64,000 nucleotides of DNA from Alcanivorax sp. (GTDB lineage Bacteria; Pseudomonadota; Gammaproteobacteria; Pseudomonadales; Alcanivoracaceae). The position numbers and the translations under genes are program-made. The notes below the pieces were generated by a model. It did not search any database. It was not told the DNA's origin and worked only from the letters and a program-made list of their open reading frames with translations. Numbering within the stretch: the first letter of the stretch is position 1; each line of letters begins with the position of its first letter. The stretch lies in contig JAKUPL010000022.1 of the NCBI GenBank assembly GCA_022449455.1, positions 1 through 64,000 on the forward strand, written 5' to 3'. Positions 7,478 through 22,672 of this stretch are shown here, piece by piece.

Positions 7478-8460
7478 GTCGCCGCTGGCGCTGGCTGCTG
7501 CTGGTCGCCCTGTTGATCGGGGCCACCGTGCCCCTGGTGCTGGGCGGCCCGGAGGCGTTCCATGACCTGCGCCGGGTGCCGGTGACCTGGCTGCTGGGTC
7601 TGCTGGCGATGATCGGCGTGTGCTGGAACCTGAACGCCTGGCGCCTGCGCCTGATGCTGAATGGCCGCGCCCCCCACATGAGCCACGGCGATGCGCTGAT
7701 CACCACGGTGGCCACCGAGTTCAGCCTCAACGCCACCCCCGGCGGCAGCGGCGCGCCCTTCACCCTGGCGGCCCTGTTGTCCCGCCACGGGGTGGCGCCG
7801 TCCCACGCCACCGCCGTGCTGGCGGTGGATCAGCTCACCGATATGCTGGTGTTCGCCACCTTGCTGCCCACCGTGGCCCTGTACGGGCTGGCCCGCTATC
7901 TGGACTGGGGCGGCTGGTGGCAACTGGCGGTGCCGTTGGGGTTGTTGCTGGGCGGCCTGGCGGCGGTGGTGCTGACGGTGCGCTATCAGCGCCGGCTGCT
8001 GATCGGCTCCGGTGATCTGCTGGCCTGGCTGGGCATGCGACGCCGCCGCCGTTTCCGGCTGGCCCGGGCCACCCTGCGCTTCCGCCGTGGTCTGGAGGAG
8101 ACCCTGGCGGTGCCGCGCCGCAAGCTGGCGCTGATGTTCGGGCTGTGTTTGCTGCATTGGCTGCTGCGTTATTCGGTGATCTATATCGCGGTGCTGGCGC
8201 TGGGCGAGCATCTGGACTGGGCCTACGGGTTTTTCGTGCAGATGGTGGCCATGGGCGCCGGCCATCTGACCCTGCTGCCGGGCGGGGCCGGCGGCGCCGA
8301 GGTCGCCGGCGCCGCCTTGCTGAACCCCTGGCTGGGCACCGTCACCGCCGCCACCGTGATCGTGATCTGGCGCTTCGTGACCTTCTACTGGTACCTGATC
8401 GTCGGCGCCCTCCTGATGCTCTACCTCGGCGCCCGCGAAACCCGCCCCCTGATGAACTGA
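7474..8460 (+). CDS. UPF0104 / LPG-synthase-type transmembrane protein
   Basis: A 328-residue integral membrane protein with about 8 helices. It belongs to the lysylphosphatidylglycerol-synthase transmembrane-domain family (UPF0104), shown by FSLNATPGGSGAPFTLAAL (about residues 80-100) and LTLLPGGAGGAEVAGAALL (about 265-285), the two Gly-rich loops typical of the family. In MprF this domain flips the modified lipid, but stand-alone members are mostly uncharacterised. The GTG start at 7474 overlaps the deacetylase stop. With a glycosyltransferase and deacetylase upstream, a flippase for a glycosylated lipid is a reasonable inference, not shown. Confidence 0.85.
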   Translation: MSRRWRWLLLVALLIGATVPLVLGGPEAFHDLRRVPVTWLLGLLAMIGVCWNLNAWRLRLMLNGRAPHMSHGDALITTVATEFSLNATPGGSGAPFTLAALLSRHGVAPSHATAVLAVDQLTDMLVFATLLPTVALYGLARYLDWGGWWQLAVPLGLLLGGLAAVVLTVRYQRRLLIGSGDLLAWLGMRRRRRFRLARATLRFRRGLEETLAVPRRKLALMFGLCLLHWLLRYSVIYIAVLALGEHLDWAYGFFVQMVAMGAGHLTLLPGGAGGAEVAGAALLNPWLGTVTAATVIVIWRFVTFYWYLIVGALLMLYLGARETRPLMN

Positions 8461-8574
8461 GAAGTATCGTTCTCCAGCCGGGGCGCGACTCCGCAATGCG
8501 CTCAACGAAGCCGCCACCACTACCCACCCCGGTTCATCGTTGTTGGAACCCGGAACGGTTCCGCTACCTCGGAG

Positions 8575-8679
8575 CGGAGCTGTGTGGGTCCCTTCCGGGA
8601 CCCTTTTTGGCAGGGATGCCAAAAACGGGAGCGCCCATGGACGGCTTGAGCGATCCCGGAAGGGACTCACACAGCTCCG
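8575..8679. repeat. Inverted-repeat element A (dispersed-repeat candidate)
   Basis: Two 26-base arms (8575-8600 and 8654-8679) are complementary except for one position. Between them lies a second perfect hairpin, TTTTTGGCA (8604-8612) with TGCCAAAAA (8617-8625). The inner end of each arm carries the core CCCTTCCGGGA / TCCCGGAAGGG, also found in the element at 57060-57247. This looks like a member of a non-coding dispersed palindromic family. Confidence 0.75.
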
Positions 8680-8728
8680 CGTCCCGGATAAGGACCGACC
8701 AGCCGCAAAAAAGCCACGATGAACCATT

Positions 8729-8757
8729 AAAAAGCCCCGGACCTCGCGGCCCGGGGC
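8729..8757 (-). terminator. Rho-independent terminator of the sulfatase gene
   Basis: On the minus strand GCCCCGG (8757-8751) pairs with CCGGGGC (8740-8734) and is followed by TTTTT (8733-8729). It lies about 40 bases after the sulfatase stop codon. Confidence 0.75.
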
Positions 8758-8798
8758 ACGCCCCCCAAGGGCGAACACGGAATCAGCGAAAAGGCTGC

Positions 8799-10496
8799 CT
8801 AGAGCGTGTACATAAAGGTGGGCCCGATGAACTCGGCGCCCTTGTCCTCGCCCACTTCCTCGGCCACCAGCCGATTGGTTTTCTCGTTCATCGCCAGAAT
8901 CAGGTCCCGGTCCGGCTCCGGCTGAGCCGCCAGATTGTTGAGCTCGTGCGGGTCCTGCCAGGTGTCGTACAGCTCCAGGTCGTTGTGGGCGGTAAGGGTT
9001 TCCCAGTCCTCGGGTGTGTGATGGCTGTCCGGGCTGAAGTAGCGGGCGAACTTGTAGCGGCCGTCGAACACGCCCCGGTGCAGGCCCCGGTTGCCCAGCT
9101 CCGGGCCCAGGCGCAGCTGCTTGAGAAAGTCGCCCATCAGTTTCACCGGGGTGATCTCGTCGCCCTCGGTGACCAGACGGCGGGTGGCCTCCGGATCGGT
9201 GTAGAGCAGCACGCCGTAGGCGAACAGCACGCCCCGCTCGTCCCGGCGGGTGTGGCCGCCGTTGAGCACCGGGCTCAGGTCCACGCCGGGGGTGTCGGTC
9301 TTGCCCTGGCCCTCGGTGGCCAGACCCACCAGGGTGGGCAGCAGATCCAGGGTGGAGCCCAGGTTCTCCACGGCGCGGCCGCCGCGCACGTCCGGATGAC
9401 GGATGATCAGCGGGATGCGGCTGTTTTCCTTGTAGACCATCGGCCCCTTCTGGCGCAGGCCGTGGGCGCCCGCCATTTCGCCGTGGTCGGCGGTGTAGAC
9501 GATGATGGTGTTGTCCATCTGGCCGCTTTTTTCCAGCGCCCACAGCACCCGGTCCACCTGCCGGGACACGTCGCGCAGGCAGTTGTAGTAGTAGCTCTGG
9601 TTGGCCAGCCAGGCGGCCTCGTCGCCCTTGTCGATGCGGCCATAAATGGTATCGATCACATCGGCATAGGAATGGTGGCACCAGGGCTTGCCGGCCAGGG
9701 TCTCGCGGTGGAAGGAGGCGGGCAGGGGCAGGTGGGTCCAGTCCCGGTCGTAGAGCGGGTCGTTGGGCGCCGGCCGCAGCGGCGCCATGAACATGGGATT
9801 GGCCCGGGAGCGGTCCTGGGCCTCGCTGGTGGAGAAGAACATGATGTCGTGGGGATTGACGAAGTTCACCGCCAGCAGCCAGGGCCGGTCCAGCTTGCGG
9901 CTGTCGCGCATCAGCCACTGGCCGGCTTCGCCGGAGACCATGCGGTCCGCCAGATAGCCCTGCCATACCGAGCCGTGCACGTCGCCGGTCAGGTTGTAAT
10001 CGTGGAAGCCATGGGGCTCCAGGGCGCGGCGCCGGCTCGGGTAGCTGCCGTACATCAGGCCGGGGCCGTCCTCAATGTCGGACAGATGCCACTTGCCCTT
10101 GTAGGCGGTGTGGTAGCCGAGCGCCTGGAACACGTGGCCCAGGGTCGGCAGGTCCGGGTTGAGGGTGGGGAACGGCGGCGCGTGCAGGTTGGCGGTCATG
10201 CCGGTGTGCATGGTGTGCTGGCCGGTGTACATCACCGAACGGGACGGCGAGCACGGGGAGGTGTTGGCGTGGTACCCGGTGAAGCCCACGCCCCGGGCCA
10301 GCAGTTTTTCATGGGCGGGCAGGTCCAGGGCGCCGGGCAGATCCGGCCAGCCGCGCTCCTGGTCGGACACCAGGAGCAGCACATTGGGCCGCTTGCCAGC
10401 GCCGCCGGTGGCGGCACGCAGGGCCGGGGCGGTGCCCAGGGCGGCGGTGCCCAGCGCCAGTTGTTTGAGCACGGTGCGTCGCGTGAAAGACGTCAT
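8799..10496 (-). CDS. Sulfatase (formylglycine type), Tat-exported
   Basis: A 565-residue sulfatase. The N-terminus FTRRTVLKQLALGTAAL looks like a twin-arginine signal, so the enzyme should act in the periplasm. The mature start NVLLLVSDQERGW gives the metal-binding Asp. The sulfatase signature SPCSPSRSVMYTGQ has C82 in the C-x-P-x-R context that is converted to formylglycine. KGKWHLSD and TADHGEMAGAHG are the other conserved metal and substrate motifs. The overall layout resembles choline-sulfatase and arylsulfatase relatives, but the sulfate-ester substrate is not readable. The ATG at 10496 fits the Tat signal; a longer frame upstream lacks homology. A LysR gene is divergent and probably regulates it. 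Export after cytoplasmic modification would need a formylglycine-generating enzyme or anSME, not in this window. Confidence 0.9.
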   Translation of the reverse strand: MTSFTRRTVLKQLALGTAALGTAPALRAATGGAGKRPNVLLLVSDQERGWPDLPGALDLPAHEKLLARGVGFTGYHANTSPCSPSRSVMYTGQHTMHTGMTANLHAPPFPTLNPDLPTLGHVFQALGYHTAYKGKWHLSDIEDGPGLMYGSYPSRRRALEPHGFHDYNLTGDVHGSVWQGYLADRMVSGEAGQWLMRDSRKLDRPWLLAVNFVNPHDIMFFSTSEAQDRSRANPMFMAPLRPAPNDPLYDRDWTHLPLPASFHRETLAGKPWCHHSYADVIDTIYGRIDKGDEAAWLANQSYYYNCLRDVSRQVDRVLWALEKSGQMDNTIIVYTADHGEMAGAHGLRQKGPMVYKENSRIPLIIRHPDVRGGRAVENLGSTLDLLPTLVGLATEGQGKTDTPGVDLSPVLNGGHTRRDERGVLFAYGVLLYTDPEATRRLVTEGDEITPVKLMGDFLKQLRLGPELGNRGLHRGVFDGRYKFARYFSPDSHHTPEDWETLTAHNDLELYDTWQDPHELNNLAAQPEPDRDLILAMNEKTNRLVAEEVGEDKGAEFIGPTFMYTL

Positions 10497-10573
10497 GGTG
10501 TTACCTGCTTCGATGCCATCGTTGTTTTTCTGAGCGTTGTTTTTTGGAACGATGGACGGGAGTATGGCCAGAT

Positions 10574-10590
10574 AACCCATGACTGGGGTT
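10574..10590. promoter_or_regulatory. Possible LysR-type operator between sulfatase and regulator
   Basis: AACCC and GGGTT form a 5-bp inverted repeat with a 7-base spacer, a size typical of LysR half-sites. It sits in the middle of the 175-base divergent region (10497-10671) and is followed by the AT-rich TTTATATAT. Binding is inferred only from position. Confidence 0.4.
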
Positions 10591-10671
10591 TATATATCCA
10601 TGCCCTTCACGCCCGCTCGAAGGGTGCTAAGGTGCGCCGTTCGGCACCGCGACGGGGCCCGGGAGAGGCGC

Positions 10672-11646
10672 ATGTGGCAATTGCAGCAACTGGTTCAGTT
10701 TCGGGCGGTGTACGAATACCGCAGCCTGTCGGCGGCGGCGCGGGCCCTGGGGGTCACCCAGCCGGCCCTGAGCCGCGCCCTGCAGAAACTGGAGGAGCAA
10801 CTGGGCGCGCCCCTGTTCCAGCGTGACACCCGCTCCCTGCGCCCCACCGAGTTCGCCACCGCGCTGTACCGGCAGGCGTCCCGGGTGCTGCGGGAAAGCG
10901 CCGGTCTGGACCAGCTGGTGGAGCGCTTCCAGCAGGGTCGGGAAGGCCAGGTGCGTCTGGGATGCGGGCCGTTCGTGCCGGATCTGATGGCGCGGGAGCT
11001 GGTCCGCGCCATGGAACGGGCCGGCCTGAAGCTGCACCTGGACGTGCACACCGATCATTTCGAGGCGCTGAAGGAAGGGCTGTACGGCTACCGCTACGAT
11101 TTCCTGCTCTATGACGTGCGGCGCCGGGACGATCTGCCCGACCTGGACGACGCGGTGGTGGAACCGCTGTTGAATCTGCCGCTGAAGATGGTGGCGCCGG
11201 CGGACTGGCTGCGCGGCGAGGCCCGCGCGGCCCTGGAGTCCGAGGCGGCGGCGCTGGACTTCGTGGCCGCCCGGCCCTGGGCCATGCCGCGGGTGTCGCC
11301 GGATTATGGCCGGCAGGCGGCGCCCTGGTTCCACCGTCTGCTGCAGGCGCGCCACGGCGCCGAATTCCTGATGCCGACCCTCAGTGCCTGCGTGGGGCTG
11401 TGCCGGGCCGGCCACGCCATCACGCTGGCGCCGGACGCCCTGATCCGTGAAGAGGTGGCGGCGGGCTGGCTGGTGTCGCTGCCGCTGGAGGTGGGCGCCA
11501 CCGCCCAGACCTGCGCCTACCGGCTGCGTTCGCGGCCCCTGTCCCAGGCCGCCGGGCGGCTTTGGCGATTGCTGGCCGGCGGCGGCCTGGGGATGAGCGA
11601 GGAGACCCTCAAACCTTCGGCGTCGAGCCGATCCTCAGCAGACTGA
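10672..11646 (+). CDS. LysR-family transcriptional regulator
   Basis: A 324-residue regulator. The winged helix-turn-helix covers residues 1-60 (VYEYRSLSAAARALGVTQPALSRAL, then LEEQLGAPLFQRD), followed by a linker helix and the periplasmic-binding-like effector domain from about residue 90. GGAGAGG at 10662-10668 supports the ATG at 10672. It is divergent to the sulfatase gene, the classical arrangement for a LysR protein and its target. The effector is unknown but could be a sulfate ester or its product. The 3' end overlaps the convergent MFS gene by 38 bases. Confidence 0.9.
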   Translation: MWQLQQLVQFRAVYEYRSLSAAARALGVTQPALSRALQKLEEQLGAPLFQRDTRSLRPTEFATALYRQASRVLRESAGLDQLVERFQQGREGQVRLGCGPFVPDLMARELVRAMERAGLKLHLDVHTDHFEALKEGLYGYRYDFLLYDVRRRDDLPDLDDAVVEPLLNLPLKMVAPADWLRGEARAALESEAAALDFVAARPWAMPRVSPDYGRQAAPWFHRLLQARHGAEFLMPTLSACVGLCRAGHAITLAPDALIREEVAAGWLVSLPLEVGATAQTCAYRLRSRPLSQAAGRLWRLLAGGGLGMSEETLKPSASSRSSAD

Positions 11647-13053: not shown

Positions 13054-15393
13054 TCAGCTCTCCGCCCGTCGCAGGGCCTCCCGCACCGCCGCCGGGGTGA
13101 TCGGCAGATGGCGCAGGCGCACCCCCACCGCCGCGTGCAGGGCGTTGGCGATGGCCGGCGCCACCACCGTGGTGCCCGGCTCGCCCAGGCCCACCGGCAC
13201 CTCGGTGCTGTCCACCAGTTCGATCTCGATCTCCGGCGTGTCCATCATGCGCAGCGGCGCGTAGCGGTCCAGATTGGTGTCCGCCACCCGGCCATTCTTG
13301 AACTCGGTGCCTTCGTAGAGCGCCATGGACAGGCCCCAGAGCGCGCTGCCCTCCACCTGGGCGCGGGCGCCGTTGGGGTCGACCACGGTGCCGCAGTCCA
13401 CCACCAGCCAGATTTTGTGCACGTCCACCCGGCCGCTGTCGCGGTCCACGCTCAGATGCACCGCGCCGCCCACCCAGGTGGGCATGCTGCGCGACTGGCC
13501 GTAGGTGGTGGCGATGCCGATGGCGCTGTCGGCGGGCAGATCGTCACGGCCGTAGCCGGACAGCGCCGCCACCCGTTCCAGCACCGCCGCCTGGCGGCGG
13601 GCGCCGCCCACGGAGTTGGGCGCCTGACCGGCGTTGCGGCCCTCCGCCTTGAAATGGTCCAGGCGGAAACGCAGCGGGTCCTGGCCGATATGGCGGGCCG
13701 CCTCGTCCATAAAGCTTTCCACCGCGAAGTTGGTCCAGCCCGGCGACACGGAACGCAGCCAGCCCGGGCGGAAGGTGTGCTCCGCCAATTCGTTGGAGAT
13801 CGCCCGGGCCCGTTGCGCGCCGACCCCGTACCAGTGGTCGATGCCGTCCGAGGAAAACGGATCGTAGGGCTCGCCGTTGACGCCCTTGGGCATGAAGGCG
13901 GGCATCATCACCTTGGTGGGCCAGCCGGACACCACCGCGCTGTCCATGCCCACCACCCGCTTGTCGGCGTCGAACGCCATGCGCAGGCGCGACAGGGTGG
14001 GCGGGCGCACGCTGTCAAAATGACTGTCGTCGGCGCGGGTCAGGATCATCTTCACCGGCCGGCCGTCGAGGGCCTTGGAGGCCAGCGCGGCGGGAATCGC
14101 ATAGTCGCCGTTGAGACGGCGGCCGAAGCCGCCGCCCAGCAGGTAGGTGCGCATCACCACCTGGTCCTCGTCCACGCCCAGCGCCTTTTGCAGCCAGGGC
14201 AGGCACAGGGACTGCCACTGGTTGCCGGTGTGCACTTCCCAGACGCCGTCGTCGTTGCGGAACACCAGGGCGTTGACCGGTTCCAGCTGGAAATGCAGCA
14301 CCGTCTGGGTGGTGTAGTCGGCCTGGAAGGTGTCGGCGGCGCCCTTGAACACCGCGTCCACGTCGCCGCTGTCGCCGGTATCCAGTATCGAGCCGGCGTC
14401 CGCATCATCCGCCAGGCGACGGTTTTCCGCCTGGATCTCCGCCTCGTTGACCCGGGTGGCGTCGCCGGTCTGGTAGGACACCTGGATGCGGCCGGCGGCC
14501 TGCCGCGCCGCCCAGTGGCTGTCGGCGATCACCATCGCCCAGCCCGGCGCGGTGCCCGAGGGGTCGTCCAGTTTCAGGGTTTGCCGGTAACCCTTGATGT
14601 CCTTGGCGGCGCTGTCGTCGATGGCGGTGATGGCGCAGTCATAGCGGGTGGGCGGCAGAATCGGCACGGCATGGACCATGCCCTCCCGGTGGGCGTCGAT
14701 GCCGTAGATGGCCTGGCCGTTGGTCTTGGTATCGATGTCCAGGGCCTTCAGGTCCCGGCCCAGCAGGGTCAGTTGATCGTGGGGTTTGAGCGGCAGCTCC
14801 TTGAGCTCGTCCTCGCTGAACTGACGGTCCAGACCCCGCCGGACCAGCTCGCCGAAGCCGATGTCGCGGCCGCCGGCGCGGACCCGGCCGTCGGCCACGG
14901 TCACGGCGCTCGCCTTGACGCCCCACAGGGCGGCGGCTTTCTCCGCCAGCGCCAGGCGGCCGGCGGCGCCGGCTTGCCGGTAGACCGGCCAGCTTTGCCA
15001 CACCGACCAGCTGCCGCCGGTGACCATGGTGCCCCACTTGGGATCGCTGTCCACGTGCTCGATGTGCACGTCCTCCCAACGGGCGCCCAGCTCATCGGCG
15101 AGGATGCGGGCGATGGCGGTGCCCACGTGCTGCCCCATCTCGGCGCGGATCACGTTCACGTTGACGCGGCCTTCGGTGTCGATCCAATACCAAAGGGTGG
15201 GTTCGAAGCGCTGTCCGGCGGCTTCCAGCGGCTGGCCGTCGGCGGCTTGTGGGTTCATCGCCGCCAGCCCGGCGCGGGGAAAACCGAACACCGCGCCGGC
15301 GGCGCACATGGACACCAGAAAGGCACGCCGGCTCAGACGGGGCGTGGACGGGCCTTGGTCGGGCAAGCGGCGTGAATCAAGCGTGTCAGCCAT
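13054..15393 (-). CDS. Molybdopterin-binding oxidoreductase subunit, IorB-like (Tat-exported)
   Basis: A 779-residue large subunit of the xanthine dehydrogenase / isoquinoline 1-oxidoreductase type. A Tat signal, [18 protein letters not shown], lies at about residues 19-40. Cofactor-contact motifs include [13 protein letters not shown] (about residue 430) and [21 protein letters not shown] near the end. It should hydroxylate a heterocycle or oxidise an aldehyde in the periplasm, using the [2Fe-2S] subunit and cytochrome c encoded just upstream. The ATG at 15393 overlaps the end of the [2Fe-2S] gene by 8 bases. The substrate cannot be assigned; IorB-like subunits fused from two domains are often generic aldehyde dehydrogenases. 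Confidence 0.88.
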
Positions 15394-15859
15394 GGGCGCT
15401 GGCCTCCTTCATGGCGGCGGCGGCATCACGAATGGCGCCACGGATGCGCGGGTAGGTCATGCACCGGCAAAGGTTGCCGGTCATCACCGCGTCGATGTCG
15501 TCGTCGCTGGGGTTCGGCATGTCCTTGAGCAGGGCCGCCGCCTGCATGATCTGACCGGACTGGCAGTAGCCGCACTGCGGCACCTGTAGCGCCCGCCAGG
15601 TCTGTTGCAACGGGTGCTCGCCGTCGGCGTCGAGACCCTCGATGGTGGTGATGGCCGCGCCGGCCACGTCCTTCAGCGGGGTGATGCAGCTGCGGGTCGC
15701 GTTGCCGCCCACATGGACGGTGCAGGCGCCGCACAGGCCGATGCCACAGCCGAATTTGGTGCCGGTGAGGCCGGCCAGGTCGCGCAGCGCCCACAGCAGC
15801 GGCATGTCCGGGTCCGCGTCCAGGCGAACCGTTTCTCCATTGATGGTGCACTCGATCAT
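15386..15859 (-). CDS. [2Fe-2S] subunit of molybdenum oxidoreductase, IorA-like
   Basis: A 157-residue protein with two [2Fe-2S] clusters. The plant-ferredoxin-type cluster is bound by C38, C43, C46 and C58 ([14 protein letters not shown] … SC). The helical-domain cluster is bound by C96, C99, C131 and C133 (QCGYCQSG … LCRC). All eight expected cysteines are present. It has no signal peptide, so it probably travels through the Tat system together with the large subunit, as known for this family. It passes electrons from the Mo centre to the cytochrome encoded 13 bases upstream. Confidence 0.9.
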
Positions 15860-15872
15860 GGGGGCTTCCTCG

Positions 15873-17186
15873 TCAATGCGTGCCGGCGTGGGCGCGCAGC
15901 TCTCCGACCCGCTCGGGCAGGTCCGGCCAGGCCGGCAGGTCGGTGCGGCTGGCGCGCAGGTAGGCGGCGATGGCGGCGATCTGCCGGTCGTCCAGGGCCG
16001 AGCGGAACGCCGGCATCACCACGCCCTGGCTGCCCTCGTCGGCGGGCACGCCATCCAGTATCACGTGAATCAGGTTGGCCGGATCGTCCAGGCGGGTGGC
16101 GGAGTTGATGCCCAGATCCGGTCGCGTCGCCTTCAGATTGTCGGCGCTGTCGTTGTAGTGGCAGGACGCGCAGGCGGTGGCGTACAGGCGCTCGCCATCG
16201 TCAAGACGCCAGGCCGGATCCGGCTTGCCGGCGGCCACGCTCGCCTGCGCCGGCGAAGAGTCCGGCTCCGGCAGGGGCCCGCTGTCCCCGTCCCGGGCGA
16301 TGCTCGCGAAGTAAACGCCCAGCGCGTGCAGGTCCCGGTCCGGCAGCTCGGCGATGCCGGCGTGCACCACCGGGCCCATGGGGCCGGCGGCGATGCCATG
16401 GTAGGCGTCCGCGCCGTGTTTCAGGTACCCGCTCAGGTCGGCGGCGGTCCAGCGCATCGCCGAGGGGTTACGGCTGGTCAGCGCCGGTGCCGTCCAACTG
16501 TCGATCACCGCCCCCTGGTAACGTTGCCCCTGGTCTTCCGCGCCCAGGGCATTGCGCGGCGTGTGGCAGGCGCCGCAATGACTGATGCCCTCGGCCAGGT
16601 AGGCGCCCCGGTTCCAGGCGTCGTCACGGTCCGGATCGGGCTGGTAGCGGCCGAAATCCACGAACAGCAGTTTCCAGCCTGCTTGCAGGAAGCGCAGGTT
16701 GAGGGGGAAGGGCAGGGTGGACTCGCGGGTTCGCTGGTTGACCGGCGCCACTTCGCTCATCAGATAGGCGTACAGGGCATCCGCGTCCTGGTCGGACAGC
16801 TTGGTGAAATGGTCGTAGGGGAAGGCGGGAAACAGGTGCCGGCCCTCCCGGTCCACGCCTTCATGCATGGCGCGGCGGAACGCCGCCGGGGACCAGTCGC
16901 CGATACCGGTGTCCGGGTCCGGCGTGATGTTCGAGGCATAAATGGTGCCGAAATCGCTGACCACCGGATAGTTGCCCGCATAGGGCTCGCCGCCCTCGGC
17001 GGTGTGGCAGGTGGCGCAGTAGCCGGCGGCGGCCAGCACCCGGCCTTTTTCGACGGTGGCGGCGTCGAAATCCGGTCGATCCGACGCCGCCATGGCGGGT
17101 AATTCCGAATGCCAGGCGTACACCGTGAAGGCCACCGCCACCACCACGGCCAGCAGCAACAAGGCAAGAAAAATACGTTTGATCAT
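15873..17186 (-). CDS. Membrane-anchored triheme cytochrome c
   Basis: A 437-residue protein with an N-terminal signal anchor ([20 protein letters not shown]) and three CxxCH heme sites at residues 57-61, 204-208 and 339-343. This spacing is that of the cytochrome subunits of membrane alcohol, gluconate and aldehyde dehydrogenases, which pass electrons to ubiquinone or the terminal oxidase in the periplasm. It is first in the operon with the [2Fe-2S] and Mo subunits, so it is the probable electron acceptor of that enzyme. MIKRIF at 17186 is the natural start; a longer frame upstream is not supported. Confidence 0.9.
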
Positions 17187-17401
17187 GGCGCGTCCCTTCC
17201 AGACCGATCCGGCCTTGAACATACACCCGATGGCGGCGCGCGCCAATATTCCCGGACGATTTCCAAGGTTTTGTTTTGTGAATCGGCGCTGGAACGGGCA
17301 CCGGCGGTCACGGTCCGATTATTCAAGCTTTTACCACCGCTCGGGACGGCATGGAGTAGGGTTGTCGGACCGTCCGGTATCCGCAGAAGGACCCAGTCTT
17401 G

Positions 17402-19051
17402 ATGAAGCGTAGAACCCTGTTGAAGAGCGCGGTGGCCCTGGCGGCCTGGTACGGTTTGCCCTCCGCGCCCCTGTTCGCCGCCGCCCGTGCCAACGATCGC
17501 ATCGCCGACGGCGAAGCGCGGCCGTTCAGTTTCGAGGGCCTGCGTCAGCGGGCCCGCCAGCTCGCCGCGGCACCGTACCAGGACGGCGCGCGCCGCCTTC
17601 CGGAGACGCTGGCGGCGCTCACCCCGCATCAGTACAACGAGATCGGTTACGACCCGGCCCACGCCCTGTGGCGCGGGCAAAGCGAGCGACTCAACGTGCA
17701 GTTCATCCATGCCGGCATGGCCTTCGACCAGCCGGTGCGTATGTACTCGGTGGACGCCGACAGCGGCCAGGCCAGGGAGATTCACTTCCGCCCGGAATTG
17801 TTCGACTACGCCCGCGCCGACGTGGACGTTTCCCAACTGGGCAGTGATTTGGGGTTCGCCGGCTTCCGGGTGTTCAAGGCGCCGTCCCTGGACGAGAAGG
17901 ACATTGTGTCGTTCCTCGGCGCCAGCTATTTCCGTGCGGTGGATGGTTCCTATCAATACGGCCTGTCGGCCCGCGGGGCCACCGTCAATACCTTCGCCGA
18001 GGGCGAGCAGGAGGAGTTCCCGGACTTCACCCATTTCTGGTTCGAAACACCGGCCCCCGGCGCCACCCGCTTCACCGCGTACGCGCTGCTGGATTCTCCC
18101 AAGCTGGCCGGTGCCTACCGATTCGTGATCGATTGCGCGGATGACGGGGTGGTGATGGACATCGACAGCCACCTGTTCCCCCGCGAGGCCATCGCCCAGC
18201 TGGGCATCGCGCCGATGACCAGCATGTTCAGCTGTGGCGGCCATCAACGCCGCCAATGCCGCACGCTGCATCCCCGGGTCCACGATTCCGACCGCCTGGC
18301 GCTGTGGCGCGGCAACGGCGAGTGGGTGTGCCGGCCGCTCAATAACCCGCCGCGCATTCAGTTCAATACCTTCGGAGACCGGGACCCCAAGGGTTTCGGC
18401 ATGCTGCAGACCCACCGCGACTTTGACGACTACGAGGACGTGATCGGCCGCTACCACGACCGCCCCAGCTTGTGGGTGGAGCCCAAGGGGCAGTGGGGCG
18501 CCGGCGAAATCCAGTTACTGGAACTGCCCACCACCGGCGAGACCATGGACAACGTGGTGGCGTTCTGGAAGCCGGAGAAAGCCATCCAGGGCGGTGAGGC
18601 TCTGAACTTCGGTTATCGGCTGCATTGGGGTGCCCGGGCGCCGGTGCACACCGACCTGGCGCGGGTGCGCGCCACCTTCAGCGGCATGGGCGGTTTCCCG
18701 GAAGGCTGGGCGCCGGGGGAGCATTACCCGGACGTGTGGGCGGAGCGCATCGCCGTGGATTTCGTCGGCGGCGATCTGAAGGCGCTTTACGACGGTGACA
18801 TCGATGTGGACACCCAACTGGACACGTCCGCCGGCGAGGTCAAGGATCTGCACGTTTTGTGGATCAAGGATCTGGACGGCTTCCGTATTCTGTTCGATTG
18901 GTATCCGGAGGACGGTGCCACGGAGCCGGTGAACATGCGTCTGACGCTCAGTGCGCGCGGCAAGGTGATCAGCGAAACCTGGCTGTTCCAGTATTTCCCG
19001 CCGCCGCAGGAGGAGCGGCGCTTTCCGCCGTTCCCGGGCAGCCAGGGGTGA
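17402..19051 (+). CDS. opgD: Glucan biosynthesis protein OpgD/MdoD
   Basis: A 549-residue periplasmic protein of the OpgG/OpgD family, which helps shape the backbone of osmoregulated periplasmic glucans. The N-terminus [18 protein letters not shown] is a Tat signal, which marks OpgD rather than the Sec-exported OpgG. The first beta-sandwich domain includes [15 protein letters not shown] and [10 protein letters not shown]; the second includes WLFQYFPP near the end. A TTG at 17399, three bases upstream, is an alternative start, with AGAAGGA at 17385-17391 serving either. No opgH glucosyltransferase is nearby. The gene converges on the sulfotransferase operon. Confidence 0.9.
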
Positions 19052-19088: not shown

Positions 19089-20240
19089 TCAGGTCCCGGC
19101 GTAACCGAAGCGCCGCGCCACCGGCGCGGTGATCTCCTCGATCAGCGTCCGCTCCCGTTCATCGAAACGGGGCTGGTAATAGGTGGGGGCGTGCAGACCC
19201 GCCGCCAGACGCGCCCGTTCCTGGTCCGCCAGGGGCAGATCGGCGTGCCGGAACACCCGGGCCAGGGTGGCGTCGGCCTCGCCGCACAGGTCCTCGTAGC
19301 GGACCACCAGGGCCGCGTCGCGCAGGGCGGGGTCCGCCTCCAGGGTATCGGCCACGTGCTGGTACACCGCCGCCCAATAGCGGGCCCAGCCCTCCACTTC
19401 CTGGCCGTTTTCCCACAGGCGGGTGACCCGCTCGGTAAGCGCCCGGTCGCCCAGATTGATGGCGCGCCGGTCCAGGCCGAATTCGTAGTGGCCCACCCGT
19501 CGCATATGTTCCAACGCCCGGGGTTCCTTGGACTCGCCGGCGACGAACAGGTCCTGTTGCTTCATCAGAGAGGCAAGGTGCCAGACCGGATCGCGGATCA
19601 GCACCAGAAAACGGGCGTCCGGGTACAGACGGTGCAGGTAGCCGAGCCGCGCCAGATTGTAATTGCCCTTGGCCAGATAGCGGCGACGCTCCCGGATGGC
19701 CAGCAGCTTGCGGATGTGCTGATCGTAGAATGCCTCGAACTCCGGGTGCCGGTCGTCGCGGCCCAGCACCGAGCTGTGGGCCGGGTCGTGGGCGTTCGGG
19801 AAAAACGCCATCCACAGCATTTCCTCGAACGCTTCCGGGCTTTTTGACGTGACCTGGATGCCGTCCTTGTGGGCGCGTTCGCGGGCCTCTTCGTGGGCAC
19901 CCGGCACCAGCGACAGCCAGCGATTCCACCAGTAGGGGATCGGCAGGAACGGGAAGTCCGCGTAGCGGTGGGAAGCCACCTCCGGGTGGCCGGCCAGATG
20001 CTCCAGCAGGATGGTGGTGCCGGAGCGCGCCAGACCGGCCACATACAGCGGCCGGTCCACGCTCAGGTCCTCGATGACATCGCCCACGGCGCGGGTTTCC
20101 AGGTTGCCCAGACGGATCCAGGCGCGCGGATGGCGATGCACCCAGCCGCCGGCCAGATGCATCCAGGAGGTGACCTGGAAATCCGGATCCGGCGCGGCGC
20201 TGGTGTCGGTGGCGGTATCGGGTCTCGGTGAAGTGCTCAT
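19089..20240 (-). CDS. Sulfotransferase (PAPS-dependent type)
   Basis: A 383-residue cytoplasmic sulfotransferase. The 5'-phosphosulfate loop is YVAGLARSGTTILLEHL with R72-S73-G74-T75-T76. The 3'-phosphate-binding strand is RFLVLIRDPVWHLASLMKQ. These are the two hallmark PAPS-contact motifs of the Sulfotransfer_3-type family. It would move a sulfuryl group from PAPS to a hydroxyl or amine of a carbohydrate, lipid or small molecule. The start ATG overlaps the previous gene's stop as ATGA, which fixes it. It is the last gene of a four-gene operon with two membrane proteins and an arylsulfotransferase. The acceptor is unknown. Confidence 0.88.
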   Translation of the reverse strand: MSTSPRPDTATDTSAAPDPDFQVTSWMHLAGGWVHRHPRAWIRLGNLETRAVGDVIEDLSVDRPLYVAGLARSGTTILLEHLAGHPEVASHRYADFPFLPIPYWWNRWLSLVPGAHEEARERAHKDGIQVTSKSPEAFEEMLWMAFFPNAHDPAHSSVLGRDDRHPEFEAFYDQHIRKLLAIRERRRYLAKGNYNLARLGYLHRLYPDARFLVLIRDPVWHLASLMKQQDLFVAGESKEPRALEHMRRVGHYEFGLDRRAINLGDRALTERVTRLWENGQEVEGWARYWAAVYQHVADTLEADPALRDAALVVRYEDLCGEADATLARVFRHADLPLADQERARLAAGLHAPTYYQPRFDERERTLIEEITAPVARRFGYAGT

Positions 20241-20953
20241 TCGATGTTCGCCCATCGGTAAGTCAGCAGGGAAACGATCAACATGATCGGGAAGAACACC
20301 GCCAGCCAGTGGCGCAGCCAGCCCGGGCCGAACGGCAGGTACTCCGGTTGCGGCAGGGCCAGCGTGACCCGCTCCACGCCGCTGTCGTCCGGCAGATAGC
20401 CGAGCGGATTGCCGATCAGCCAGTTCCACCAGTGGCGCTGCTCCACCACCGGAATCGGCGCCGTGACGGCCACCTCGGCGACCTGACGCTGGCCATCGCG
20501 GACCCGGATCACCGCCGTCTCGCCCTCGCGGCTCCAGTCCGCCCGGTAGGCGGCCGGCGCCGCTTCCAGCGCCGGCGTCTGGCCGGCGGCCGGCAGCCGG
20601 TGGGCGTAATGCCCTTCGATCCAGGTGAGCAGGGCCAGCAATGGCAGGATCGAAATCAGCGTGGGGATCACCACCAGGCCAAGATGCCGGAAAGCGGTCA
20701 CGAACTGATCGCGAATCAGCGGGCCGGCCTCGCTGAACTCGCCGTCGAACCCGTTGAGAGCCTGGCGGGCCTGGCGGGCGGCGCGCTTGGCATCGCCGAT
20801 ACGGCCCTGGGGCGACAGCCACTTATAGAGAAACAGCGTGCCCACGCCGGCCAGCGCCGCCCACACCGCCAGCCGCGCCACCGCGGGCAGAAAAGTGGCC
20901 AGACCGGTGTCGACGGCGGCGAACAGCGGAGCGGGCAGATCGAACAGCGCCAT
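20237..20953 (-). CDS. Unassigned three-helix membrane protein, possibly EMC3/DUF106-like
   Basis: A 238-residue protein of no recognised family. Helix 1 is at about residues 22-46. A basic, Ala/Gln/Arg-rich segment (RIGDAKRAARQARQAL) follows, predicted cytoplasmic and helical. Helix 2 is at about 89-111 (LGLVVIPTLISILPLLALL). A roughly 100-residue, beta-rich domain with few hydrophobic runs comes next, probably periplasmic. Helix 3 is at about 214-234. The helix / charged coil / helix layout recalls the DUF106/EMC3 branch of the YidC superfamily, but this is pattern resemblance only. The start of the sulfotransferase overlaps its stop, so the two products are probably made together. Confidence 0.8.
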   Translation of the reverse strand: MALFDLPAPLFAAVDTGLATFLPAVARLAVWAALAGVGTLFLYKWLSPQGRIGDAKRAARQARQALNGFDGEFSEAGPLIRDQFVTAFRHLGLVVIPTLISILPLLALLTWIEGHYAHRLPAAGQTPALEAAPAAYRADWSREGETAVIRVRDGQRQVAEVAVTAPIPVVEQRHWWNWLIGNPLGYLPDDSGVERVTLALPQPEYLPFGPGWLRHWLAVFFPIMLIVSLLTYRWANIE

Positions 20954-20986
20954 ACGGGCGTCCTCCCAGTGTTTTAAGACCGACGG

Positions 20987-21304
20987 TTAAACGCGACGGT
21001 CGTCGTCGGTGGGGCGCGGCGATTCCTCGGTGTGACCGGCGGGCGTTTCGTCCACCGGCGGTTCGGCCACCCGGGCGGCGGATTCGTCGGCGGCGGCCTT
21101 GCGACGCTTACGCAGGCGCCGGATCGGCCACATGATCACGAACAGCACCGCCACGCCGATGGCGGCGACGATGCCCCACAGGGCGGTGAGCAGGCTGAGT
21201 CCGGCGCCGGGCCCCACATAGGCGGAGGCCAGGCCGGGCAGCAGCAGGACGGACAGGGCCACGGTGGTGGCCAGCGCGGAACGATGAGCGTGAGCGGTCA
21301 TCAT
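20987..21304 (-). CDS. Small membrane protein with AYVGPGAG motif
   Basis: A 105-residue protein. A signal-like stretch (LATTVALSVLLLPGLASA) is followed by YVGPGAGLSLLTALWGIVAA and a membrane helix to about residue 60. A basic stop-transfer (RRLRKRRK) and an acidic/Pro tail end the protein. The AY[VI]GPGAG start of the mature part recurs in small bacterial membrane proteins of unknown function. AGGAG lies 6 bases before the ATG at 21304, which is therefore preferred over the ATG at 21310. It begins 9 bases after the arylsulfotransferase gene, in the same operon. Confidence 0.75.
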   Translation of the reverse strand: MMTAHAHRSALATTVALSVLLLPGLASAYVGPGAGLSLLTALWGIVAAIGVAVLFVIMWPIRRLRKRRKAAADESAARVAEPPVDETPAGHTEESPRPTDDDRRV

Positions 21305-21313
21305 GGTCATCTC

Positions 21314-22672
21314 CTAACGTGAGGTTGATGAGGGGGATTTTTCCGAACGGGTTTTCAGTTGTGAACGAAACGCCGGGTCCAGATCTTCCGGCGCCACCCG
21401 CTGGGCGGCGGACACCACCGGGATGTACTGATCCTGGTCGCCGGCGCGCACCGGATTGACGAACTCCCAAACGATCTCGCCGTCGGCCACTTCCAGCAGG
21501 CGGCCACCGTCGGACTCGGTGATCAGCCAGTTGCCATTGGGCAGTTCTTCCACGGCGCCGCGCAGGCCGCTGTCGAACGGGTGCGCGGCATCGCCGGTAT
21601 AGCGGGCCACGATCCGTTGGTCGGTCGGGTCCACTTCCAGGATGCGCGTGCGGTTGCCCTTCTCGAAGTGGCCGAGATTATCGAACAGGGTGAAATGGCC
21701 GGCCTGGTTGATACGCGGATAGTGTTGGCCCAGCCAGGGGCCCTTGATGGCCCAGTTCATGGTGCCGCTGTCCGGGTCCACCAGCGCCACGGCGCCGGGG
21801 TGCCGGAACGACAACAGGACCTGGCCGGCGCGCCCCTGGGCGGGGGCGAAGCGTTCGGCCAGGGCCGAAGTCAGGAACTGCACGCTGTTGGTGTGCAGCG
21901 GGTCGGCGGTGGCGAAGCTGGGCACCGCGTAGAACAGGTCGGCGTAGGGCGAATCCATGAAGGCATGGGCCAGGGACACCTTGCTGCGTTCCTCGCCGGT
22001 GTCGCCATCCAGCACCACCAGGAAGTCGTCCAGCCAGGGGGTCTCCAGCTTGGCGAAAGCGGGCACCGCCTGGTCGGTGAATTCGTGGGTGAGCGTTACC
22101 ACGTCGCCGTCCGGCGTGATGTCCAGGTCGTGGTGGGTGCTGGCGTGGTAGCGCCAGATCACCTTGGAGTCGGCGTCCAGCTTGACCATGCCGTAGCCCC
22201 AGGGGGTGTCGTTGTTGGCGATAAAGATCGCCACCAGATCACCGTTGGGCAGCAGGCGCGCCTTGCGCCAGTAGATGCGATCGTCCGGGCGCGGCGCGCG
22301 GCCCATCGGGCTCTGGTCCCAGACCTGGCTGTAGGGTAGCTGCCAGCGGTGCACTTCCCGGCCGTCCATGTCCACAAGGCTGGCATAGCTGCCGTCGCCG
22401 GAGGTGTAGAGCGTAAAGCCCGGGTAGGCGCGACCGGCATCGTGCACGGTGACACCGCGGTCGTCCCGGCGCGCGTCGCGCCACAGATCCGATTGGGTGT
22501 AGAGGTCGGACAGGGTGGTTTGCTGGATCAGGGCACCGGCGGCTTTGTGGGCGTCGTTGAACAACGGATAGGGGAAGGTGCGGGTCAGCACCATGAAGGC
22601 GCCGGCCACGAACGCGATGAACACTATCGCCACGAAGAAAACCGTGAAACCGATTCGATCCGAATTTTTCAT
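21314..22672 (-). CDS. Membrane-anchored arylsulfotransferase family protein (ASST-like)
   Basis: A 452-residue protein with one N-terminal anchor helix (FTVFFVAIVFIAFVAGAFMVL, about residues 9-30) and a beta-propeller-like body that should lie in the periplasm. Repeats such as LDADSKVIWRYHASTHHDLDITPDGD, with a His-His-Asp element near residue 175, and DPLHTNSV near 260 match the arylsulfotransferase family, where His residues take the sulfuryl group from a phenolic ester. Unlike cytoplasmic sulfotransferases these enzymes do not use PAPS. It is first in the operon and leads to two membrane proteins and a PAPS-type sulfotransferase. The length is shorter than classical AssT (about 600), so a different donor or acceptor is possible. 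Confidence 0.8.
   Translation of the reverse strand: MKNSDRIGFTVFFVAIVFIAFVAGAFMVLTRTFPYPLFNDAHKAAGALIQQTTLSDLYTQSDLWRDARRDDRGVTVHDAGRAYPGFTLYTSGDGSYASLVDMDGREVHRWQLPYSQVWDQSPMGRAPRPDDRIYWRKARLLPNGDLVAIFIANNDTPWGYGMVKLDADSKVIWRYHASTHHDLDITPDGDVVTLTHEFTDQAVPAFAKLETPWLDDFLVVLDGDTGEERSKVSLAHAFMDSPYADLFYAVPSFATADPLHTNSVQFLTSALAERFAPAQGRAGQVLLSFRHPGAVALVDPDSGTMNWAIKGPWLGQHYPRINQAGHFTLFDNLGHFEKGNRTRILEVDPTDQRIVARYTGDAAHPFDSGLRGAVEELPNGNWLITESDGGRLLEVADGEIVWEFVNPVRAGDQDQYIPVVSAAQRVAPEDLDPAFRSQLKTRSEKSPSSTSR

Follow-up and report, generated by a model that had tools for sequence, protein, structure and literature searches.

The four genes described here lie on the minus strand of a 64,000-nucleotide stretch of an Alcanivorax sp. 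genome (contig JAKUPL010000022.1 of assembly GCA_022449455.1), the whole of which is referred to as the window. From head to tail they encode an arylsulfotransferase (ASST)-like protein, a small protein with the motif AYVGPGAG (YVG), a three-helix membrane protein (TM3), and a sulfotransferase (ST) of the type that uses 3′-phosphoadenosine 5′-phosphosulfate (PAPS) (Table 1). As the initial annotation had stated, all four genes are on one strand and the last two, TM3 and ST, overlap by a shared ATGA; the gap between YVG and TM3 is 33 bases. The 9-base spacing that had been reported for the first two genes holds if YVG starts at position 21304, which has an AGGAG six bases upstream and is the better ribosome site; with the alternative start at 21310, the spacing would be 3 bases.

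Table 1. The four-gene cassette and its glucan-enzyme neighbour, in window positions.
Feature	Position	Strand	Length and properties
ASST-like enzyme	21314..22672	-	452 aa; PF14269 E 1.1e-28, PF05935 E 1.9e-7; membrane-anchored, predicted periplasm-facing
YVG (AYVGPGAG) protein	20987..21304	-	105 aa from start 21304; 107 aa from start 21310
TM3, Oxa1-superfamily-like three-helix protein with periplasmic beta insert	20237..20953	-	238 aa; no Pfam match
PAPS-type sulfotransferase (ST), cytoplasmic	19089..20240	-	383 aa; PF13469 E 1.6e-19
OpgD-type periplasmic glucan enzyme	17399..19051	+	convergent neighbour downstream; PF04349 E 1.3e-172, 575.5 bits

These four genes are a real, conserved, and largely unannotated unit that reads as a sulfation module. 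From a profile search with ASST, the best 80 of at least 492 relatives were kept, and cassette genes were called by profile search of all open reading frames in each of their loci (the 80 loci, several of which come from one genus). All four genes were found together in 57 of the 80 loci, and in 53 they had the same order and strand. The initial annotation had asked whether the genes co-occur beyond chance, and had held that scattered, never co-occurring homologues would overturn a joint pathway; these counts answer the former, and, in the half of the matter that sequence can decide, such scatter was not what we found. In the remaining 23 loci, ASST stood alone in 14; five were on contigs of <8 kb. 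Full cassettes occur mostly in Alpha- and Gammaproteobacteria, including many marine and salt-loving bacteria, and also in Desulfatitalea and, in another gene order, in a Nitrospinota bin. Among the best 80 of at least 492 relatives, the closest named ones belong to Alloalcanivorax, and within the genus of the window 5 of 13 genomes carry the cassette. Tandem ASST genes stand at the cassette in two loci (two copies in L041, three in L083), and in L111 and L112 (genomes G141 and G264) ASST is on the strand opposite to the other three genes.

The association was also seen from the side of TM3 in two even draws of genomes, one of 369 genomes from the window's class and one of 289 from the class of a Pelagibius genome. 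TM3 was rare in the first draw (9 of 369 genomes), and in all nine genomes ST and YVG lay beside it, with ASST present in eight; the single genome without ASST offered a contig of only 3.1 kb. The second draw gave TM3 in 8 of 289 genomes, six of them strong, and the full set was present in four of these six (L062, L135, L138, and L141). In L136, no ASST lay within the 9 kb fetched, and in L137 TM3 is part of a fusion and the other cassette genes are not there.

Both enzymes of the cassette agree with their initial assignments. The ASST-like protein exceeds the curated cut-offs of both of its families (PF14269, 101 bits versus 27; PF05935, 30.9 versus 24.2). A single hydrophobic segment (residues 11–29) follows a short, slightly positive N-terminus, so that, by hydropathy and the positive-inside rule, its ASST domain is predicted to face the periplasm, as had been annotated. 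In an alignment of ASST sequences (A4), H180, H181, H260, N262, R290, and H317 did not vary in any of the 47 rows taken from cassette loci (counting three loci with one gene missing, L078, L087, and L092), whereas R290 was kept in 10 of 17 rows from other loci, two of which are on contigs of <4 kb and could be parts of cassettes. By range, H317 fell on position 436 of AssT from E. coli CFT073 (3elq), although this match was weak (E 0.54) and none of its stretches passed singly; H317 also aligned with a QH of 9kf6 (E 1.8e-8). For H180/H181, H260, N262, and R290, the pairing with AssT site residues follows solely from their order and motifs. His436 of AssT carries the sulfuryl group according to the available part of PMC13426309, and H317 is its putative equivalent. 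The cassette enzyme is shorter than AssT, is anchored, and shares its operon with a PAPS enzyme. The ST is likewise above its cut-off (PF13469, 71.5 bits versus 27), has no hydrophobic segment by hydropathy, and is invariant in 28 of 28 sequences at A71, R72, G74, and T76 and at R216, P218, and S224, the phosphate-binding motifs, in keeping with the PAPS-type enzyme first proposed. An APS (adenosine 5′-phosphosulfate) kinase is encoded in the genome, and therefore PAPS can be made.

The two membrane proteins matched no Pfam or NCBIfam family above cut-off. A profile of the TM3 family (alignment A2) matched the archaeal protein MJ0480 with E 1.2e-5 over profile positions 3–117, and the matched segment of MJ0480 itself corresponds to PF01956 (EMC3_TMCO1; E 7.9e-17). 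Because none of 49 TM3 members matched PF01956 at E values of up to 10, TM3 is regarded as a relative and not as a curated member of that family. The best structural match of the confident TM3 model was a chain of the TMCO1-containing multipass translocon. TM3 has a three-helix core in which a cytoplasmic helical stretch separates helix 1 from helix 2, as found in the Oxa1 superfamily (MJ0480 DUF106/YidC, TMCO1, EMC3, and Get1), and differs from these proteins in a beta-rich periplasmic insert of ∼85 residues and in its link to sulfation genes. On the basis of the profile match and the structure model, we place TM3 as a remote relative of the Oxa1 insertases, and any insertase activity that it has is putative. 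Four short forms of 151–156 aa (L026, L057, L075, and L085) do not have the periplasmic insert. In L137 (genome G704), a 920-aa frame at positions 8211-10970 joins a signal-peptide-like PF01663 phosphodiesterase to a C-terminal TM3, an arrangement that would fit an N-out topology for TM3; the 18 kb fetched there contained no match to ASST, ST, or YVG.

YVG consists of an AxA cleavage-like site, the sequence YVGPGAG, one more hydrophobic segment, and a basic tail. A28, A30, Y31, G33, P34, and P62 are invariant among 36 sequences (alignment A6), and a literature search found no mention of the YVGPGAG motif. A YVG-like N-terminus also occurs on phosphodiesterase-like proteins, in L140 (genome G695; PF01663) and, by eye, at L089:11574-13781. 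Further genes in L140 encode a distant TM3, a PF13469 sulfotransferase, and, as read by eye, two sulfatase-like proteins; the locus is perhaps a second type of system built around the same TM3/YVG membrane pair.

A similar division of labour between a PAPS enzyme and an ASST has a precedent. In caprazamycin biosynthesis, which reportedly divides the work among the type III polyketide synthase Cpz8, the PAPS sulfotransferase Cpz6, and the ASST Cpz4, the PAPS enzyme is said to make an aryl sulfate that the ASST-type enzyme then spends on a sugar hydroxyl. The accessible text of PMC12142624 describes Cpz6, Cpz8, and Cpz4 as acting together, and that of PMC13426309 gives a sugar as the preferred acceptor of Cpz4. 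The cassette likewise encodes a PAPS enzyme and an ASST together, but it adds the Oxa1-like and YVG membrane proteins, its ASST is anchored and predicted to face the periplasm, and its neighbours are not an antibiotic cluster. A type III polyketide synthase or other aryl-carrier synthase was found neither among the four genes nor in the 25 of 141 neighbour families listed. By analogy, the cassette would work like the two-step sulfation of caprazamycin, although we do not place it as a member of that system. The initial annotation had known of no described pathway with this composition; given the precedent of Cpz6, Cpz8, and Cpz4, the logic of the PAPS-to-ASST relay is not new, whereas its membrane-built version is.

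We propose that the cassette encodes a trans-envelope sulfation machine, in which a relay runs through a membrane platform to a periplasmic glucan in this lineage, and we give this proposal about an even chance of being correct. In such a relay, the cytoplasmic ST would use PAPS to load a sulfuryl group onto a hydroxyl or phenol carrier held in the membrane, and the Oxa1-like TM3 together with YVG would form the platform that presents the loaded carrier to the periplasmic face. The anchored ASST, judged by its family and conserved residues, would then take the sulfuryl group on H317 and give it to a periplasmic sugar. The acceptor in this lineage would most likely be the osmoregulated periplasmic glucan (OPG) acted on by the neighbouring OpgD, and sulfate would be an anionic substituent in the role that phosphoglycerol or succinate has in E. 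coli. Both the carrier and the acceptor are putative, and the mechanism as a whole is plausible. Of the joint pathway first suggested for these genes, the conserved four-gene module (57 of 80 loci) stands, and the carrier and its passage through the membrane stay conjectural.

OPG is a likely acceptor here and in several other lineages because opgD or opgG (in two groups, opgH) adjoins the cassette. According to the available part of PMC11842490, both OpgD and OpgG belong to GH186 and act in the synthesis of OPG. The copy in the window is 57% identical to E. coli OpgD versus 37% to OpgG; it is of the OpgD type and probably the functional partner of the cassette. Among the 80 loci, 10 had a PF04349 gene (opgD/opgG) within 1.1 kb, at a distance of 1,022 bases in one case and of no more than 400 in the other nine. 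All 10 belong to the 57 full cassettes, and none of the 23 loci without the full set had such a gene. This gene is convergent after ST in Alloalcanivorax, Salinicola, and one Pelagibius locus, on the same strand after ST in Ferruginivarius, and divergent before ASST in Chelativorans. A sixth group from an even draw (G177/G291) has opgH next to ST on the same strand, with opgG ∼2.8 kb from ST. In Ferruginivarius opgH is ∼4 kb from ASST, and L051 has opgG 85 bases from ST and opgH ∼4 kb from ASST. On a tree of TM3, OPG adjacency appeared at five places and required 6 changes, 5 of them forced by starred branches; this was a quick tree of 66 rows with the short forms left out and with four long rows, L051 among them, and it cannot tell gains of adjacency from losses. 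Poisson estimates for the adjacency were 1e-16 by locus and 2e-8 by 35 genus-like groups, but we prefer the tree because these estimates rest on a rough copy number and genome size and on our own grouping.

In the even draws, PF04349 was found in 8 of 12 cassette genomes versus 89 of 644 others (Fisher P 5e-5, with both draw centres left out and shared ancestry ignored), a count that keeps G367 and G674, although neither showed an ASST; a looser pooled P of 2e-6 also counts the window's genome and G704, in which TM3 is the phosphodiesterase fusion. The known machinery for OPG substituents (OpgB, OpgC, and OpgE) similarly puts anionic groups on the glucan at the periplasmic side, and the OpgD beside the cassette is closely related to the E. 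coli GH186 enzyme; the difference is sulfate, which is not among the substituents (succinate, acetyl, phosphoglycerol, and phosphoethanolamine) named in the accessible text of PMC11842490. The third OpgD copy, which is the one beside the cassette in the window, has the same distribution in the genus as the cassette: 5 of 13 genomes have both, and the others have neither. As proof of a unit with OPG, this co-occurrence is weakened by G004, in which the block missing at the site also takes three oxidoreductase genes; because that block is larger than the cassette plus OpgD, the joint loss is not specific. Adjoining OpgD in the window, positions 13054-17246 hold molybdopterin-dehydrogenase-like (by eye), 2Fe-2S, and cytochrome c-like (by eye) genes; the G004 sequence fetched around EctD gave no tblastn match for any of them. 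An ectoine hydroxylase gene lies upstream of the cassette and was rejected as a member of the unit, since 13 of 13 genomes of the genus have an EctD match, whether or not they carry the cassette.

Several observations weigh against a relay to OPG. PF04349 was missing from 4 of 12 cassette genomes in the even draws and from 11 of 51 genomes searched through loci, and 47 of the 57 full cassettes had no PF04349 gene in the fetched flanks. No carrier-making gene was seen in the cassette, G674 has TM3, YVG, and ST with no ASST within the 9 kb fetched, and 14 of the 80 ASST relatives occur without the other three genes. Sulfated OPG was not found in the literature, which was searched in open-access papers only. 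Of the 16 genomes that have a TM3 match but no PF04349 (G695, whose TM3 match is only distant, among them), 3 had a gene of the cyclic-glucan-synthase kind (PF10091), too few for such a gene to stand in generally for an absent opgG. In G141 and G264, the cassettes adjoin glycan genes of another kind, with an ABC exporter-like gene (by eye), a UDP-galactopyranose mutase, and a glycosyltransferase after the cassette in L111. Since four of the 12 cassette genomes have neither opgG nor opgD, other glycan acceptors must exist, and we propose a periplasmic or exported glycan as the general acceptor, with OPG as the acceptor in this lineage.

One explanation for the absences and for the neighbours in L111 is that the same relay serves some other envelope or export glycan that differs by lineage, with OPG genes as frequent company in osmotically stressed bacteria. 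This is possible but rather doubtful, given that OPG genes are near the cassette at five tree positions in differing orientations, nine of 10 within 400 bases among the 80 loci. A second point against it is a Pfam scan of 101 neighbours, which gave no family with more than 3 matches among the 25 of 141 families listed, and those with 3 matches were large ones (SDR, FAD oxidoreductase, and GST). The scan covered 101 of 170 candidates and excluded most of the MdoG ones. Ten loci had been set aside, and five more, in which crude codon-usage gene calls detected no core gene, contributed no neighbours. Other neighbours recurred by eye (SDR in 20, ABC ATPase in 19, and TRAP transporter in 15 loci versus 11 for MdoG, in cluster counts that include the window and L011) and were rejected, SDR and ABC ATPase because they are many-copy families and TRAP because its loci are mostly Thalassospira or Pelagibius.

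There may instead be no relay, with ST and ASST acting on separate substrates, or the ASST-like protein binding or removing sulfate, and with TM3 and YVG merely assembling or inserting the ASST-like protein. The resemblance of TM3 to insertases, the solitary ASST relatives (14 of 80), and the occurrence of TM3 and YVG with PF01663 phosphodiesterases would all suit such an arrangement, but we consider it unlikely, as the four genes travel together over classes and R290 is kept in 47 of 47 cassette rows versus 10 of 17 others (two possibly cassette). A role like the one suggested for AssT of E. coli CFT073, in which sulfate is exchanged with phenols from the environment, would agree with the family name and with the ASST activity on small phenols reported in the accessible part of PMC13426309; it leaves the conserved PAPS enzyme, TM3, YVG, and OPG neighbours unexplained and is the sort of role that we would least expect here.

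A more specific form of the relay, which we regard as very improbable, is that YVG itself is the sulfuryl carrier through its tyrosine. ST would then act on this tyrosine inside the cell, the short hairpin with its sulfate would cross the membrane by way of TM3, and ASST would use the tyrosine sulfate as its donor for the periplasmic glucan. The idea comes from the tyrosine, which is invariant (36 of 36) directly after the invariant AxA site, from the ST profile, which among solved structures is nearest to protein-tyrosine sulfotransferases (E 3.7e-11, mainly over one short stretch), from one ASST that the available part of PMC13426309 lists with tyrosine peptides as acceptors, and from the insertase-like TM3. 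Against it, spending one protein per sulfate would be expensive if the hairpin could not return through the membrane, and fusions of YVG to phosphodiesterases also occur. If true, an Oxa1-type device would serve to transport a chemical group, with a protein as the carrier.

For the proposed trans-envelope relay to a periplasmic glucan, the wider setting is that PAPS is a cytoplasmic compound, which raises the question of how bacteria could sulfate sugars that are completed in the periplasm. Natural acceptors are also unknown for most ASSTs, according to the accessible text of PMC13426309. The cassette offers a testable answer, both as a route for periplasmic sugar sulfation and as a source of natural ASST acceptors, and it predicts a new OPG substituent, sulfate, in salt-loving bacteria. 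With TM3, the surroundings of the Oxa1 insertases gain a bacterial branch that has no name so far and may do something other than insert proteins, and an insertase-like part in a sulfation machinery would be an unexpected role for this superfamily.

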